Source: an uncultured Roseateles sp. (lineage in GTDB: Bacteria > Pseudomonadota > Gammaproteobacteria > Burkholderiales > Burkholderiaceae_C). Taken from it: a stretch of DNA of 64,000 nucleotides. The translations under genes and the position numbers were made by a program. How positions within the stretch are numbered: the stretch's first letter is position 1; the number at the start of each line of letters is the position of its first letter. Location: contig NZ_CAJYPS010000014.1 in the NCBI RefSeq assembly GCF_913777145.1, positions 372,001 to 436,000 on the forward strand, written 5' to 3'. The notes below the pieces were generated by a model. That model was not told the DNA's origin, did no database searches, and saw nothing but the letters and a program-made list of their open reading frames with translations. This document shows positions 5,606-12,371 of the stretch, piece by piece.

Positions 5606-8600
5606 TCAGATCCAGCGCAGCGCGGCGTTGCGCAGCTCCAGGTCGTCGTCCGTGCCCGGCCGATGCACCCAGGCGCCGTGCGTGCTGGGGGCGGTGGTGT
5701 CGGGCGCCGGTGCGGCGGCGGTGGCCGTGCCGTCCTGCAGCAGCGCGGGCGCCGGGGCCTGCAGCAGCTCGTGCAGCGCCGGGGCCGCGGCGGCCGTGCC
5801 GTTGCCGGCGCTGCCGAACCACACGTCGGCCAGCTGGTGGTGGGCGCCGTCCTGCGTGGTGTAGCCCGAGATCAGGCCCAGCAGATTGCCGTTCTGCATC
5901 TGGTCGCTGGCGCTGGCGCCCAGGTCCAGCTCCACGATGCCCAGGTCGGCCAGGCTCAGCAGCTGGCCGCCGCTGGCGTGGCCGTTGGCGTCCGCATGGC
6001 TGCCCATCCAGACCTTGAGCTGGTTGAAGTCGTGGTCGGCGGCGCTGATGTGGCCGTCGTGGTTGCTGTCCAGCTGGGCCAGCGCCTGGAAGCCGTTGTC
6101 CGCCAGGTGGCCGTCGGCCAGCCGGGTGGCGGTGCCGAACAGCTCGGCGCCGTTGTCGATGACGCCGTTGCCGTTGCGGTCCAGCGCCAGCAGGCCGGCG
6201 TGGTCGCCGACCCAGCCGATCTGCTGCGCATGGCCGGTGGCGTTGATGTCGAACATCACGCCATGGGCCGCGTCCACGGTCTGCACGCCCAGACCGCCGA
6301 AGTCCAGCACCAGCGGCGACACGCCGGCCAGTGCGGCCAGCTGGGCCGGCGTCATCACCTCGCGCTGTGCGCCGGTGAAGCCGGCGACGTGCTGCATGTC
6401 GATGGCGCTGAGCTCGGCCGTGCTCATGGCCGAGATCTGCGCCTGGGTCAGCATGCCGATGTGGTCGGTGGGCAGCGCATTGAGCTGCGCACCGCTAAGC
6501 GCGCCGATCGCCGAGGGGCTGAGCAGCGGGATCTGGTCGGTCTCGAAGGCGCCGAAGCTGGTGGGCGACAGCGCCGCGACCTGGGTGCTGGTCAGCGCCA
6601 CCAACTGCGTGGGCGTCAGCGCCTGCAGCTGCAGGCCGCCCAGCGCCGCCATGTGGGCGGTGGTGAGCGTGGCGATCTCGGGCGTGGTCAACGATTCGAT
6701 CTGCTCGCTGGACAGCACGGCCAGCTGCTCGGGCCGCAGCACCGAGAACTGCGCGGCCGACAGCGCATGCAGCGCGGCCGGGTTCAGCCCCGGCATGGCC
6801 GACACGCTGAGCGCCGCGAGCTGGGCGGTGGACAGCGACAGCACCTGGGACACGGTCAGGCCCTCCAGCTGGTCGCCGTGCAGCGTCGCGAACGCGGCGG
6901 TGGACAGCGACGCGAGCCGGTAGGGCGTGATGCTGGCGATCTGGCCGGCGTCCAGGTTGGCGAGCTGATCCGCCGTGAGCGACTGCAGCTGGGCGATGGA
7001 CAGGCTGCCCACCGCCGCGTCGCTGAGCGCGCCGATTTGCTGCGGCTGCAGCGCCTGCATCTGCGTGGTGCTGAGCCACTGCATCTGCAGCGTGCCCAGC
7101 GCCGCGAGCTGGTCGCCGTTGAGCTGGCGCAGCGAATCGGCCGACAGCGCCTGCAGCTGCAGGCTGTCCAGCGAGGCGATCTGCGGATTGGTCAGCGCGG
7201 CGATCTGGCCCGGCAGCAGCGCGACCATGCCGGCACTGCCCAGCGCGTGCAGCGCCGCGGTGCTCAGGCCCATCAGGCTTTCGGGCGCCAGCGCCTGCAG
7301 CTGGCTGGTGGTCAGCGCCGCGGCCTGGGTGCTGTCCAGCGCATGGATCTGCAGCGCGTTCAGCCCCGCCAGCGCGGCGGTGCTCAGCAGGCGCATCTCG
7401 GCGGTGCTGAGCAGGTCGATCTGCGCGGTGGTGAGCGCGGCGATCTGGCCGGGCTGCAGCGCGCCGAACTGCTCGCTGGCCAGTGCGCTCAGCGCCGACG
7501 GCGTGAGCGCCGCCACCTGGGCCGGCGTGAGCGCGGCGATCTGCGCGGTGCTCAGGCCCGGCACCTGGGCGCTGGTCAGCGCGGCCAGCTGCTCGGTGCC
7601 CAGGCCGGGCACCGGCGTGGCGGTCATCAGCGCCAGCACCGCGCTGCTGAGTGACCCGAACACGCTGCTGTTGAACGCGGCCGTGCCGGCCGTGCCCAGC
7701 AGGCTGATCTGCTCGGAGCTCAGCGCCGCGATCGCGCTGCCGGTCAGCGCATTGAGCTGCTGCGTGCTGAGCGCATGCAGCTGGTCGTTGCTCAGCGACG
7801 CGAGCTGGGCGCCGCTCAGCGCCTGCATCTGCGCGCTGCTGAGGCCTGCCAGTTGCTGGGTGCCCAGCAGGTCCAGCTGGCCGATGCTGAGGCCGGCGAT
7901 GGCGGCCGAGCTGATGCCGCCGATCTGGCTGCTGACCAGGTGGGTGATGTCCGCACTGGTGAAGGCCTGCAGCTGAGCGACCGTGAGGCCGGCCAGCTGG
8001 GCGCTGCTGAGCGTTGGCAACACGCCGGCCAGCGCACCCCATTCATTGGCGTCTATGGCGGCGATCTGGCGGCTGGTGAAGGCCTGCCACTGCGCGCTGT
8101 CCAGCCCCAGCATCTGGGCGGTGGTCAGGGGCTGCACCGCGGCGGCCTGCAGCGCGGCGATCTGCGTGGGGCTGAGCCCGCCCAGCTGCGCGGTGGACAG
8201 CGCGGCCAGCGCCCCGGTGGCCAGCGACGCGATCTGCGCGGTGGACAGCGCGCCCAGCTGCTGGGCGTCCAGCCCGTTGATCTGGCTGCTGGTCAGCAGG
8301 CTCAGCGCGTTGGTGGACAGCGCGGCCAGGCTGCCGGGGGCCAGGTTGTGCAGTTGCGCGCTGCTGAGCGCATTCAGCTGGGTGGCGCCCAGCGCCGCCC
8401 ATTGCGCGGTGCTCAGCGCATTGATCTGGGCCAGCGTCAGCGCGCCCACCTCGCTGCGGCTCAGCGCCGCGATCGCGGCCGTGCCCAGCGCCTGGATCTG
8501 CGTGGCGTTCAGCGCCACCCACTGCGCGGTGCTCAGCGCCGCGATGGCGCCGGGCTCCAGCGCGGCCAGCTGGTTGCTGGCCAGCGCGGCGATCTGCGCG

Positions 8601-11600
8601 CTGCTGAGCGCGGCCACCTGGTTGCTCTGCAGCTCACCCCATTGCGCATCGCTGAGGCGGCCCAGGCCGGCCGTGCCCAGGCTGCGCAGCTCGGCGCTGC
8701 TGAGTGCGGCGATCTGGGCCGAGCCCAGCGCCTGGATGTCGGCCAGCGACAGGCTCTGGAACTGCGCGGTGCTGAGCACCGCGATCGCCTGCGGCGACAG
8801 CGCGGCGACCTGGTCGCTGCCCAGCGCCTGCAGCTGGTCGGTGCCGAGCGCTCGCACCGCCTGGGTGGACAGCAGCGGCAGCTGGCTGGCGCTGAGGGCG
8901 CTCAGCTGTGCGGTGGTGAGGGCCGCGGCCGACGTGGCGCTGAGGCCCTGCAGCGCTGCCGTGCCCAGCGCGGCGATCTGGTCGACGCCCAGCAGCTGCC
9001 ACTGGCGCGTGCTGAGGCTGTTGAGCTGGGCGCTGCCCAGCGCGCCGACCTGGTCGTCATGCAGGCTGCGCAGCGTGCTGTCGCTGAGTGCCCGCAGCTG
9101 GCTGGCGCTCAGCGCCTGGATCTGGGTGCTGCCCCATTGCGCGATCTGTTGGCTGCTGAGCGCGGCCACCACACTGCTGGCCAGGCCGGCGACCGCGCTG
9201 CTGCCCAGCGCCCCCAGCTGCTCGGCGCTCAGCGCCTGCAGCTGGGCGCTGCCCAGGCCGCTGGTCTGGCGCGAGGTGAGGGCGGCGACCTGCTCGTCGG
9301 CCAGCGCGGCCAGCGCGGCCGTGCCCAGCTTGCTGATCTGGCCGGCGCTCAGCGCGGCGAGCTGGCTGCCGGTGAAGCTGGCCAGTGCGCCGCTGCCCAG
9401 CGCCGCGAGCTGGCTGGCGGTCAGCGCGGCCACGCTGGCGGTGCTCAGCGCCGCGAGCTGTTCGCCGGACAGCGCCTGCAACTGCTCGGCCTTGAGGTTG
9501 GCGGTGGCGGACGAGGTCAGTGCACCCAGCTGCTCGGGCTGCAGTGCCTGCAGCTGTGCGCTGCCGAGCTGGCCGATGACCGCGCCGCTGAGGCCGCGTA
9601 TCGCGGCCGTGCCCAGCTCGGAGATCTGTTCGGGGCTGAGCGCGCGCAGCTGGTCGCCGCTCCAGACTGCGGTCTGCTGCGCGCTCAGTGCGCCCAGCTG
9701 TTCGGCCGTGAGCCCACCCAGCGCGGCGGCGCTCAGGCTCTTGAGCTGCGCGCCGCTGAGCGCAGCCAGCTGGGCCGTGCCCAGCGCCTGCACATCGTCG
9801 GCGCCCAGCACCGCGAGCTGGCGGGCCGTGAGGCCGCTGAGCGCGCTGGGGCTGAGGAAGCGCAGCTGGTCGGCCGACAGTGCGTCGATCTGCTGCGTGC
9901 TGGCACCGGCCAGCTGCTTGGCGTTGATCGCGGCCAGTTGATCGGGCTGCAGCGCGGCGATGGTCTGCGTGCCCAGCTGCGCAAACTGCGAGGCCGACAG
10001 GCCAGCGATCTGCGCGCCGCTGAGGGTCTGCAGGTGGTCGGTGCCGATGGCGGCCCACTGGGCCGAGCTCAGCGCAGCCACCTGGGCCGGGCTCAGCGCG
10101 GCCAGCTGGGTGTCGTCCAGCGCGGCCACCGCATTGGTGGGCAGCGCGCGGATGGCGGCGGTGCTCAGCGCATGCAGCTGGTCCACCGACAGCGCGCCCA
10201 GCTGGCTGGCGCTCAGGCCCAGCATTGCGGCCGAGCCCAGGCCGGCCAGTGCCTGCGTGCTGAGCGCGCTGAGCTGGTCGGCGCTGAGCAGCTGCAGCTG
10301 GCGCGAGCCCAGGCCGTTGAGCTGGGCGGCGCTCAGGTCGCCGATCTGGCTGGCATTCAGCGAGCGCCAGATCGCGTCGCTGAAGCCGCGCAGCTGGGTG
10401 CTGGTGAAGGCCTGGAACTGCGCCTCGCTGAGCGACTGCAGCTCCTCCACGCTCAGCGCCGAGGCCTGGGCACTGGTGAGCGCGCGCAGCGCGGCGGTGG
10501 ACAGCGCGGCCACCTGATCCACGCTGAAGGCGGCGATCTGCGCGCTGCTGAGGCCCAGCACCTGGCGGCTGCCCAGCGCCACGACCTGGTCCAGGTCCAG
10601 CCCGGCCAGCGCGGCCGTGCCGAAGGCGGCCAGCTGCGCGCTGCCCAGGCCGGCCAGCTGCGAGGCCTGCAGCGAGTCCAGCCAGTTGGCGTTCAGGCCG
10701 CCCAGCTGGGCGCTGGTCAGCACGTTGAGCTGGGCCGTGCCCAGTGCGGCGATCTGGTCGGGCGTCAGGCCCTCGAGCTGGTGGGCGCTGAGGCCGCGCA
10801 GCGCGGCCGTGCCCAGCGCCTTCCACTGGTCGGCGGAGAAGTCGTCCAGCTGGTCCGTGCCCAGCGCCATCGCCGCGCTCGAGCTGAGGCCGCGCAGCGC
10901 GGCCGTGCCCAGCGAGGCGATCGCATCCGCGCCCAGCAGCTGCAACTGGTGCGTGCTGAGGCCGTTGAGCTGGGCCGAGCCCATGGCCGCCCATTGGTCG
11001 ACGGAGACGGCGGCGATGTCGGCGTCCGACATCGCGCGCAGCTGCGCGCTGCTGAGGCTGCCCCAGCTGGCGCTGTCCAGCGCGGCCACCTGATCGCTGT
11101 CCAGCGCGGCGATCTGCTGGCTGCTCCAGCCGCGCAGCGCGGCCGAGCCCAGCGCATGCACCTGGTCGGCCGACAGTGACGCGATCGCCGCCGTGCCCAG
11201 GCCGGCGAGCTGGCGCGAGCCGAGGCTGGCGATCTGGTCGGCGCTGAGCGCGTCCAGCGCGTCCAGACCCAGTCGGCCCAGCTGGGCCGACGACAGCGCG
11301 CGCAGCTGCGCGGTGGACAGCCAGGCCATGTCTTCGGGGCCCAGCGCAGCGATCTGCGCGGTGGTCAGCGCGGCGATCTGGGCGGTGGTCATGGACTGCC
11401 ACTGGTCCGAACCAAAGGCCTGCAACTGCTCGTTGGCCAGGCCGGCGACCGCGCGGGTCGCGATCTGCGCGAGCTGGTCGCCGCTGAGCGCGGCGATCTG
11501 CGTGCTGCTCAGGCCCCCGATGGCGGCCGAGCTGAGGCCGGCGAGCGCCTGCGGGGTCAGGGCTTGCAGGTGGTCGGTGTCCAGGCTGGCGAGCTGGCTG

Positions 11601-12250
11601 CTGCCCAGTCCGGCGAGCTGGGCGCTGCTGAGCTGGCCGGTCTGCTCTGGTGTTAGCGCGCCCAGCTGGGCGCTGCCGAGACCTGCCACCTGGGCCGAGC
11701 CCAGCGCGGCGAGCTGGTTGGACGCCAGGCCGGCCACCGCGCCGGTGTCCAGCGCGCCGATCTGCTCGGGCTTGAGCGAGCGTATCTGCGTGGTGCTGAA
11801 TTCCTGCAGCTCGTTGGGCCCCAGCGCCGCGACCTGGCTGCTGCTCAGCGCCACCAGCGCCGAGGTGCTGATGGCCTGCACCTGGGTCGGGCTGAACTGG
11901 TCGAACAGCGCGGCGCTGAGCGCGGGCGCCTGGCGGCTGGTGAGGGCGCGCAGCGCCTGGGTGCCGAGCGCGCCGAGCTGGTCGTCATGCAGCGCGCCGA
12001 ACTGGTCGGCGCTCAGCAGCGGCATGCTGCGCGCGTTCAGCCCGGCGATGGCGCCCACATTCATGGCCGCGATCAGATCGGTGGCAATGCCGCCCCAGCC
12101 GGCGGCCGAGATCGCCGCGACCTGGGCGCTGGTCAGCGCCGCGAACTGATCGGCGCTGACGGACTGCCAGTCGGCGGCCTTCAGCGCGGCGATCTGCGCG
12201 GTGCCCAGCTGGGCGATCTGCTCGGGGGACAGGCCGGTGAAAAGGGGCAT
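5606..12250 (-). CDS. Giant octapeptide-repeat protein with C-terminal calcium-binding domain
   Basis: 2,214 residues from the ATG at 12250 (a GTG at 12253 would add one); GGAG lies 7 bases upstream. After six residues comes an uninterrupted array of 246 units with consensus L-[S/T/G]-x-x-Q-[I/L/V]-x-A, residues 7-1973. All units are eight residues long except unit 176 (LAGVLPT, bases 8012-8032). By hand count Gln holds position 5 in about two thirds of units. The Ser/Thr at position 2 and Gln at 5 look like helix-capping boxes, so a solenoid of short helices is plausible (inference). Residues ~1974-2214 form a domain common at the end of large RTX-like proteins: GVMFDINATG, then two EF-hand-like loops (LDRNGNGVIDNGAELFG near 2021; LDSNHDGHISAADHDF near 2065). 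There is no signal peptide, membrane segment or RTX nonapeptide. A type I-secreted surface or adhesin-like protein is the best guess, but no exporter is encoded nearby. A terminator separates it from terC. Confidence 0.85.
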   Translation of the reverse strand: MPLFTGLSPEQIAQLGTAQIAALKAADWQSVSADQFAALTSAQVAAISAAGWGGIATDLIAAMNVGAIAGLNARSMPLLSADQFGALHDDQLGALGTQALRALTSRQAPALSAALFDQFSPTQVQAISTSALVALSSSQVAALGPNELQEFSTTQIRSLKPEQIGALDTGAVAGLASNQLAALGSAQVAGLGSAQLGALTPEQTGQLSSAQLAGLGSSQLASLDTDHLQALTPQALAGLSSAAIGGLSSTQIAALSGDQLAQIATRAVAGLANEQLQAFGSDQWQSMTTAQIAALTTAQIAALGPEDMAWLSTAQLRALSSAQLGRLGLDALDALSADQIASLGSRQLAGLGTAAIASLSADQVHALGSAALRGWSSQQIAALDSDQVAALDSASWGSLSSAQLRAMSDADIAAVSVDQWAAMGSAQLNGLSTHQLQLLGADAIASLGTAALRGLSSSAAMALGTDQLDDFSADQWKALGTAALRGLSAHQLEGLTPDQIAALGTAQLNVLTSAQLGGLNANWLDSLQASQLAGLGSAQLAAFGTAALAGLDLDQVVALGSRQVLGLSSAQIAAFSVDQVAALSTAALRALTSAQASALSVEELQSLSEAQFQAFTSTQLRGFSDAIWRSLNASQIGDLSAAQLNGLGSRQLQLLSADQLSALSTQALAGLGSAAMLGLSASQLGALSVDQLHALSTAAIRALPTNAVAALDDTQLAALSPAQVAALSSAQWAAIGTDHLQTLSGAQIAGLSASQFAQLGTQTIAALQPDQLAAINAKQLAGASTQQIDALSADQLRFLSPSALSGLTARQLAVLGADDVQALGTAQLAALSGAQLKSLSAAALGGLTAEQLGALSAQQTAVWSGDQLRALSPEQISELGTAAIRGLSGAVIGQLGSAQLQALQPEQLGALTSSATANLKAEQLQALSGEQLAALSTASVAALTASQLAALGSGALASFTGSQLAALSAGQISKLGTAALAALADEQVAALTSRQTSGLGSAQLQALSAEQLGALGSSAVAGLASSVVAALSSQQIAQWGSTQIQALSASQLRALSDSTLRSLHDDQVGALGSAQLNSLSTRQWQLLGVDQIAALGTAALQGLSATSAAALTTAQLSALSASQLPLLSTQAVRALGTDQLQALGSDQVAALSPQAIAVLSTAQFQSLSLADIQALGSAQIAALSSAELRSLGTAGLGRLSDAQWGELQSNQVAALSSAQIAALASNQLAALEPGAIAALSTAQWVALNATQIQALGTAAIAALSRSEVGALTLAQINALSTAQWAALGATQLNALSSAQLHNLAPGSLAALSTNALSLLTSSQINGLDAQQLGALSTAQIASLATGALAALSTAQLGGLSPTQIAALQAAAVQPLTTAQMLGLDSAQWQAFTSRQIAAIDANEWGALAGVLPTLSSAQLAGLTVAQLQAFTSADITHLVSSQIGGISSAAIAGLSIGQLDLLGTQQLAGLSSAQMQALSGAQLASLSNDQLHALSTQQLNALTGSAIAALSSEQISLLGTAGTAAFNSSVFGSLSSAVLALMTATPVPGLGTEQLAALTSAQVPGLSTAQIAALTPAQVAALTPSALSALASEQFGALQPGQIAALTTAQIDLLSTAEMRLLSTAALAGLNALQIHALDSTQAAALTTSQLQALAPESLMGLSTAALHALGSAGMVALLPGQIAALTNPQIASLDSLQLQALSADSLRQLNGDQLAALGTLQMQWLSTTQMQALQPQQIGALSDAAVGSLSIAQLQSLTADQLANLDAGQIASITPYRLASLSTAAFATLHGDQLEGLTVSQVLSLSTAQLAALSVSAMPGLNPAALHALSAAQFSVLRPEQLAVLSSEQIESLTTPEIATLTTAHMAALGGLQLQALTPTQLVALTSTQVAALSPTSFGAFETDQIPLLSPSAIGALSGAQLNALPTDHIGMLTQAQISAMSTAELSAIDMQHVAGFTGAQREVMTPAQLAALAGVSPLVLDFGGLGVQTVDAAHGVMFDINATGHAQQIGWVGDHAGLLALDRNGNGVIDNGAELFGTATRLADGHLADNGFQALAQLDSNHDGHISAADHDFNQLKVWMGSHADANGHASGGQLLSLADLGIVELDLGASASDQMQNGNLLGLISGYTTQDGAHHQLADVWFGSAGNGTAAAAPALHELLQAPAPALLQDGTATAAAPAPDTTAPSTHGAWVHRPGTDDDLELRNAALRWI
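6332..12232 (-). repeat. 24-bp coding repeat array, 246 units, nested in a 648-bp superperiod
   Basis: The DNA of the octapeptide array: 245 units of 24 bp and one of 21 bp (8012-8032), all in frame. Numbering from the protein N-terminus, octads that lack Gln at position 5 recur every 27 units: 29, 56, 83, 110, 137, 164, 191, 218; 33, 60, 87, 114, 141, 168; 14, 41, 68, 95, 122, 149, 203; 46, 73, 100, 127, 154, 181, 208. Units 43, 70, 97, 124 and 151 share a basic or amide residue at position 4. The array is therefore about nine diverged copies of a 216-residue (648-bp) block. No two neighbouring units are identical at DNA level over long stretches, so the array looks old rather than freshly expanded. 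Confidence 0.85.
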
Positions 12251-12340
12251 CACAACACTCCGGGCCGGGCGTGCTCAATTTCCTTCTCAAGTTCCGCCTC
12301 GACCGGCCGACAGGCTAGGGGCTGGCTCGCCTGCAGGGTC

Positions 12341-12371
12341 AAAAGAAATGGCCGGCAATTGCCGGCCATTT
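12341..12371 (-). terminator. Intrinsic terminator of terC (minus strand)
   Basis: A 26-bp perfect palindrome at 12346-12371 (arms AAATGGCCGGCAA and TTGCCGGCCATTT) followed, in the minus-strand direction, by a T-rich tract (TTTCTTTT, through 12341). It lies 46 bases after the terC stop and about 90 bases before the start of the octapeptide giant, so the giant must have its own promoter in 12251-12340. Confidence 0.8.

Follow-up and report, generated by a model that had tools for sequence, protein, structure and literature searches.

A gene on the minus strand of a 64,000-nucleotide stretch of DNA from an uncultured Roseateles sp. (contig NZ_CAJYPS010000014.1, positions 372,001-436,000, assembly GCF_913777145.1; the whole stretch is hereafter called the window) encodes a protein of 2,214 residues with a long series of eight-residue repeats, or octads (5606..12250; ATG at 12250, stop at 5606-5608). 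The best explanation for this octad protein, which we place only slightly above even, is that it forms a sugar-coated rod secreted by a type I system. Its repeat, fold model, helical period, domain fold and gene association were computed, and we infer export, glycosylation, a calcium step, size, location and role.

The register of the repeat is almost unbroken. Six residues are followed by 175 octads (residues 7-1406; 8033..12232), a single 7-residue unit that breaks the register (8012..8032) and a further 70 octads that end at residue 1973 (6332..8011), so that the 246 consecutive units with one short unit reported in the first-pass annotation are recovered by the register count. The consensus given there, L-[STG]-x-x-Q-[ILV]-x-A, likewise agrees with the frequencies over 244 octads, which read L-[STG]-[STAP]-[ADSE]-Q-[LIV]-[AQG]-[AG]. 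Identity of the protein to itself is 0.31-0.33 at lags of 8, 16 and 24 residues and 0.05-0.13 at the remaining lags up to 26. A GTG stands immediately 5' of the ATG (at 12253), and the motif GGAG lies 7 nt upstream of that ATG, which makes the 2,214-residue reading likely; all residue numbers count the ATG-encoded M as 1. The gene is the sole place of its kind in its own genome.

The repeats belong to the Pfam family PF20080 (ALTTAQ_rpt), with 908.7 bits against a gathering score of 26.4 bits (E = 1e-281; 77 stretches), and one block also matches the solved chain HeliScrew4 (9zem_A) by sequence (E = 1.6e-19; profile search E = 3.2e-30). The earlier view that no described family or structure applies is thus not right; the repeat family itself is still little explained. 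No match was listed for the protein in NCBIfam at E values up to 1, and structure searches gave no close solved relative among the matches listed, HeliScrew4 likewise being absent there.

An AlphaFold2 model of a 216-residue block (38 rows; pLDDT 96.5, pTM 0.88) has no strands and consists of 27 helices of 4-6 residues, each octad holding one. Such a regular helical solenoid is what the first-pass annotation had anticipated, when it proposed very short helices, with an N-cap box in every octad, that wind tightly into a solenoid, and the consensus frequencies fit the repeated N-cap as well: the octad can be read as N' Leu, N-cap Ser/Thr/Gly, N1 Ser/Thr/Ala/Pro, N3 Gln and N4 Leu/Ile/Val, motifs that we take to be a capping box and a hydrophobic staple. 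The octads almost certainly form a solenoid of short helices. Two better known solenoids were considered and rejected. Leucine-rich repeats have parallel strands and a repeat of 20-30 residues, and sequence matches to them exist, but the block model has helices only; armadillo and HEAT repeats have two or three helices in about 40 residues, while the octad model has one helix per 8 residues. Simple backbone models (3,975 of 5,250 free of clashes; one pass covered 95-118 degrees only) turn L1, I/L/V6 and partly Q5 inward and positions 2, 3, 4 and 7 outward, positions 1, 5 and 6 being inside in the compact ones listed. Models with turns of 2.3-2.8 octads are equally compact or more so, and hence backbone modelling does not predict the pitch.

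The pitch can instead be read from the sequence, and the octads very probably wind as a superhelix of about 3.4 octads per turn. We applied a Fourier analysis over octad number to one-hot features, with octads shuffled within each run as the control. A first pass on the window protein with physico-chemical features had given peaks at 2.46, 3.38 and 4.46 octads, of which only that at 2.46 exceeded all 200 shuffle maxima. With the one-hot features, the first run of the window protein peaks at 3.390 octads, a height reached by none of 2000 shuffles. The same was found among relatives at 80 loci (the best 80 of 436 confirmed, from named genomes): 67 proteins yield 106 runs of 40 octads or more, with a median z of 10.6 at 3.39 and a common peak at 3.39-3.40; z exceeds 3 in 88% of the runs and the top peak is at 3.4 in 74, while 14 of the 81 proteins (80 relatives and the window protein) gave no run of this length. 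The minor peaks are close to aliased harmonics of 5/17. Three fragments come from a distant family of the phylum: one of them also peaks at 3.40 (z = 14.8), and the highest peak of the remaining two is at 2.00.

Many runs carry a longer repeat on top of the octad. In the 84 runs where it is strong, the best lag is 7, 10, 17, 24, 27, 34, 44, 48, 51 or 54 octads, and these lags deviate from whole turns by 0.025 turn on average against a chance expectation of 0.25, although 50 of the 84 runs have lag 17, the lags are sums or multiples of each other and the estimate of the period used largely the same runs. The period goes together with these longer repeats, with z above 3 within the band in 83 of the 84 runs and in only 6 of 16 runs lacking a strong one, and shared 17-octad ancestry could therefore alone give much of the peak. 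Two results run counter to that view: a fit restricted to lags 1-16 is best at 3.40 (r = 0.84; lag k is not independent of lag 17-k), and units of differing length give nearly the same turn, with median periods of 3.401 (50 runs, 17-octad unit), 3.436 (7 runs, 24) and 3.378 (10 runs, 27) beside the ratios 17/5, 24/7 and 27/8. The simplest reading is that, with a superhelix of 3.4 octads, duplications in the octad arrays keep its faces aligned.

The faces of this screw differ in composition. Since an angular profile over many proteins mixes angle with ancestry, the test on the window protein only is the cleaner one. In its first run the acidic residues at position 4 gather at 329 degrees (R = 0.67) and Ser/Thr at position 3 on the opposite side, at 167 degrees, neither being reached in 2000 permutations. 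Basic residues (R/K/H) at position 7 also have an angular preference (p = 0.0015), and Ser/Thr at position 2 give p = 0.06; none was detected in this run for non-Gln residues at position 5, W/F at position 6 or Gly at position 2. The octad part (1,978 residues) contains 374 Ser/Thr but 3 Asn sequons, which speaks for Ser/Thr as the putative sugar acceptor. In a relative from Roseateles koreensis (L044), Ser/Thr at position 3 are kept site by site (0.70 versus 0.22).

The L044 protein aligns with the window protein without a gap from residue 2 to beyond residue 1979 and has the 7-residue unit at the equal place; identity is 0.498 in register and falls to 0.26-0.33 after sliding by 1-30 octads. 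Because L044 keeps the unit number without a gap, we regard the octad protein as a conserved protein and not a slippage product. A slippage tract is also ruled out by the program TRF together with this alignment, as TRF finds only short imperfect stretches with periods of 24, 48 or 72 bp in the gene. Three other close relatives (L045-L047) have larger indels, some of them whole octads (8, 16, 24, 56, 72 and 80 residues) and others of 35, 60 and 191 residues, which in part are frame ends, read from stop to stop, that found no match. A tree built from 81 C-terminal domains places the window protein and L044-L047 in a supported set (100/99), with the bootstrap not fully settled. In these alignments, octad number and order are common to two species at about 50% identity but differ in some relatives. 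A BLAST search that masks low complexity gave no match of one 216-residue block among plasmids or phages at the limits set. A second octad gene stands immediately 3' of the first at five loci (L066, L091, L049, L117 and L109). At four others (L023, L024, L028 and L032) the octad frames are split into several open reading frames (ORFs), and these loci contain N, which perhaps reflects assembly trouble in long repeats.

Behind the octads lies a domain of about 167 residues (5816..6316) with the fold of the calcium-loaded self-processing module of FrpC (6sjw, 6sjx). The two modules have in common the fold, two EF-hand-like loops and a Trp pair; the roles of the FrpC calcium-site residues are those given in PMC7078468. 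They differ in that the FrpC module is cleaved at an Asp before Pro where the octad protein has Ser, and in that the octad module comes after an octad array. The residue before this Pro is Ser in the window protein and Ser or Thr in all 80 relatives (33 and 47, respectively), and no Asp occupies the place of Asp478 in any of 14 aligned rows. In the window module the calcium sites 462-474 and 499-511 keep their ends, while D421, D423, D456 and D521 are replaced; in the other 13 rows D stands at both 456 and 521, 421 is D or N, and 423 is D, N or H. The first calcium site is also changed in L044-L047.

The protein ends in a tail of 69 residues (5609..5815), mostly of low confidence in the model; it includes a run of acidic residues and a predicted helix and closes with the hydrophobic pair -WI. 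An acidic-hydrophobic end is of the kind proposed for type I secretion signals. The last two residues are hydrophobic in 68 of the 80 relatives and in 10 of 130 neighbouring ORFs, and the combination with at least three acidic residues among the last 20 occurs in 63 and 5, respectively; the control ORFs come from the neighbourhood of 24 of the loci and were identified with a simple rule, and some of them may be false. The 12 relatives that lack the hydrophobic end cluster in the tree (2 changes versus 11.5 in shuffles), and two of them (L109 and L114) have a different, HlyB-like exporter gene. This pattern agrees with an export signal at the C-terminus that suits the respective exporter; the tail is a candidate type I secretion signal. 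No N-terminal signal was seen by eye, and no RTX nonapeptides were found by Pfam (PF00353, E up to 1).

A candidate exporter is encoded elsewhere in the genome, in an operon of a TolC-like gene, an HlyD gene (the single one over the type I cut-off), an LssB-type ABC gene (772 bits, cut-off 693) and a GT41 glycosyltransferase gene with TPR repeats. A 569-residue ORF beside this operon (L130:293-2002, minus strand) has no Pfam match and one relative, in L104. The pairing of GT41 and exporter follows the octads across genomes. Among the matches listed, 20 of 60 genomes (the own one included) contain ALTTAQ repeats, and GT41 lies within 300 bp of an LssB ABC gene over the cut-off in 19 of these 20 against 1 of the 40 without; within the genus the figures are 15 of 15 against 1 of 5 (Fisher p = 0.001), although p-values of this type overstate independence, as related species share ancestry. 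The lone exception among the 40 is a fragmentary assembly of 83% completeness (G011), and GT41 places were only partly covered in three genomes with LssB over the cut-off but no ALTTAQ (G027, G028 and G048) and in the distant family. ALTTAQ and GT41 share a contig, 6-33 kb apart, in 17 of the 20 genomes among the matches listed. In the distant family, GT41 is present in all 11 ALTTAQ genomes covered and, among the matches listed, lies on the same contig, 6-25 kb away, in seven. Some distant-family genomes carry many GT41 matches, up to 58 in one genome among those listed, and several have frames of about 2,400-3,800 residues with several GT41 domains (for instance G167:C92:27095-35212); 8 kb separate one such frame from an ALTTAQ gene.

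The association is also visible at the octad loci themselves, whose gene neighbourhoods suggest type I export and glycosylation; adhesion and biofilm, raised in the first-pass annotation, are a putative function only. Three (L133, L135 and L136) have the order GT41, ABC, HlyD, TolC-like, sugar-type genes and octad gene, and at L134 and L136 the Pfam names include FdtA, DegT-type aminotransferase, hexapeptide transferase, methyltransferase and family 2 glycosyltransferase. GT41 is found at 15 of the 80 loci, TolC-like genes at 12, ABC genes at nine (one weak) and HlyD at eight; with the GT41 frequency of the window genus, which may differ from that of other genera, the 795 kb of flanks should contain about 0.3 GT41 genes. 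At five loci the GT41 frame shares the strand of the octad frame and starts 4-168 bp after it. Downstream of the octad genes at L114 and L109, and on their strand, lie HlyB-like ABC genes that score 636 and 632 bits and so stay under their cut-off (725.55), together with HlyD genes that exceed theirs. Three of the genomes of the four closest relatives have the GT41-exporter pair; the 20 kb around it hold no octad frame in two of them and a partial one at a contig edge in the third (L148).

In the explanation that we favour, the octads would wind as a superhelix with one short helix each, making some 72 turns of about 3.4 octads (27 residues), with acidic residues on one side of the screw and the position 3 Ser/Thr on the other. 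The TPR-GT41 encoded beside the exporter may put sugar on octad Ser/Thr in the cytosol prior to export, a step towards which we lean slightly. The C-terminal module and tail would then steer the protein through the LssB-type exporter (ABC, HlyD and TolC-like), and calcium would fold the module outside the cell. Type I export is the step that we consider quite likely. The end product, an extracellular sugar-coated rod on or around the cell, appears fairly probable, and would measure about 50-75 nm if the rise per octad is 2.1-3.1 Å.

Other explanations fit parts of this evidence. A secreted rod or adhesin that carries no sugar, with GT41 and the sugar genes serving another product such as a surface polysaccharide in a surface-biosynthesis island, is a distinctly less probable reading that we nevertheless take seriously: the FdtA-like, DegT-type aminotransferase, acetyltransferase and family 2 glycosyltransferase genes at the loci are able to make a polysaccharide, and the own genome retains its octad gene though it is without FdtA. 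However, GT41 stands directly behind the octad gene at the five loci mentioned, its association with octads recurs in the distant family, and GT41 enzymes act on proteins, the family otherwise comprising O-GlcNAc transferases according to PMC3983070. We think it improbable that the protein stays inside as a cytosolic or periplasmic scaffold or binding protein, in the manner of an armadillo-like solenoid, since type I genes follow the octad genes at L109 and L114, octad genes co-occur with the exporter and the C-terminal module shares its fold with a module of a type I-secreted protein. The fold of that module could also suggest an adhesin that clips and cross-links itself like FrpC, but the replacement of the cleaved Asp by Ser or Thr throughout, the lack of Asp at the Asp478 place and the degradation of two calcium sites in the window make this very improbable.

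Several observations weigh against the glycosylated, type I-secreted rod. The 3.4 period is not clear in the second octad run, neither that of the window protein (z = 2.6) nor those of L044-L047 (z = -0.0 to 2.9), and the backbone models alone do not yield 3.4 octads per turn. Ser/Thr at position 2 are hardly site-specific in the comparison with L044 (0.69 versus 0.57), and two of the four calcium sites are degraded in the window module. The exporter and GT41 genes lie on another contig, near its end, and not beside the window gene; the own genome also has GT41 genes on two further contigs (C23 and C31), one other RTX-type match and other ABC exporters, and no FdtA gene was found in it. The flanks of the four closest relatives (about 4 kb before and 10 kb after) had no GT41, HlyD or TolC-like match, one weak ABC match being found at L047. 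The fourth closest-relative genome, a metagenome-assembled one, has a divergent GT41 only and no LssB at the limit used, and one genome with ALTTAQ and GT41 (G031) has no LssB over the cut-off among the matches listed. Moreover, gene association alone is no proof that GT41 acts on the octads.

Compared with known systems, the octad protein combines familiar features differently. It resembles RTX adhesins and toxins in its association with a type I exporter, its lack of a visible signal peptide and its very large size, but those proteins have glycine/aspartate-rich nonapeptides and Pfam found none here. HMW1 and HMW1C also pair a large exported protein with a GT41-family enzyme, and according to PMC3983070 HMW1C has an AAD domain in place of TPR and acts on Asn sequons, unlike the octad system with its TPR-GT41, type I exporter and Ser/Thr-rich target of 3 sequons. 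HeliScrew4 (120 residues) has an octad sequence, of which 78 residues align gap-free to one block of the 2,214-residue window protein. The octad consensus of PF20080 is identical in the window protein; the period, the gene context and the C-terminal module are what is added to this family here. No paper was found under the names ALTTAQ or HeliScrew, and none of the best-ranked titles and abstract openings describes the link of octads, exporter and GT41.

The surroundings of the gene are less informative. A hairpin followed by a U-rich stretch lies between the octad gene and the TerC-like gene upstream of it (12345..12371, minus strand); it resembles a terminator and is absent from the output of a terminator pattern scan. 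Overlapping plus-strand ORFs, among them a long Q/R/G-rich frame of 1,134 residues antisense to the octad gene (7775-11179), were rejected as genes: because the codon-position G+C of the minus frame (0.72/0.53/0.95) and the kept relatives favour the minus frame, we read this ORF as a shadow that is probably a by-product of high G+C. The neighbours covered in the window (TerC-like, esterase-like, ApbA-like, nitronate monooxygenase-like and others) give no clue to the role of the octad protein. Further away, at 661-2691 on the plus strand, the window encodes an autotransporter-like protein that combines a PAP2 phosphatase domain with a passenger-associated transport repeat.

More generally, it is conceivable, though we advance it only tentatively, that ALTTAQ superhelices form a dedicated class of O-glycosylated, type I-secreted rods, in which TPR-GT41 enzymes recognise the regular screw and sugar the position 3 Ser/Thr on one face, an opposite acidic stripe serves calcium or side-by-side assembly, and the product is a coat or fibre of glycoprotein whose length is set by the gene, with 3.4 octads per turn and duplications of nearly whole turns as its design law. 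A little-explained Pfam repeat becomes a testable system, with a helical fold whose period is read from the sequence and with candidates for the exporter, the protein O-glycosyltransferase and the secretion signal. If the explanation is true, bacteria would possess a parallel to O-GlcNAc-type protein glycosylation in which the acceptor is very regular, and rigid rods of set length could be drawn from nature, beside the HeliScrew4 chain already in the PDB.
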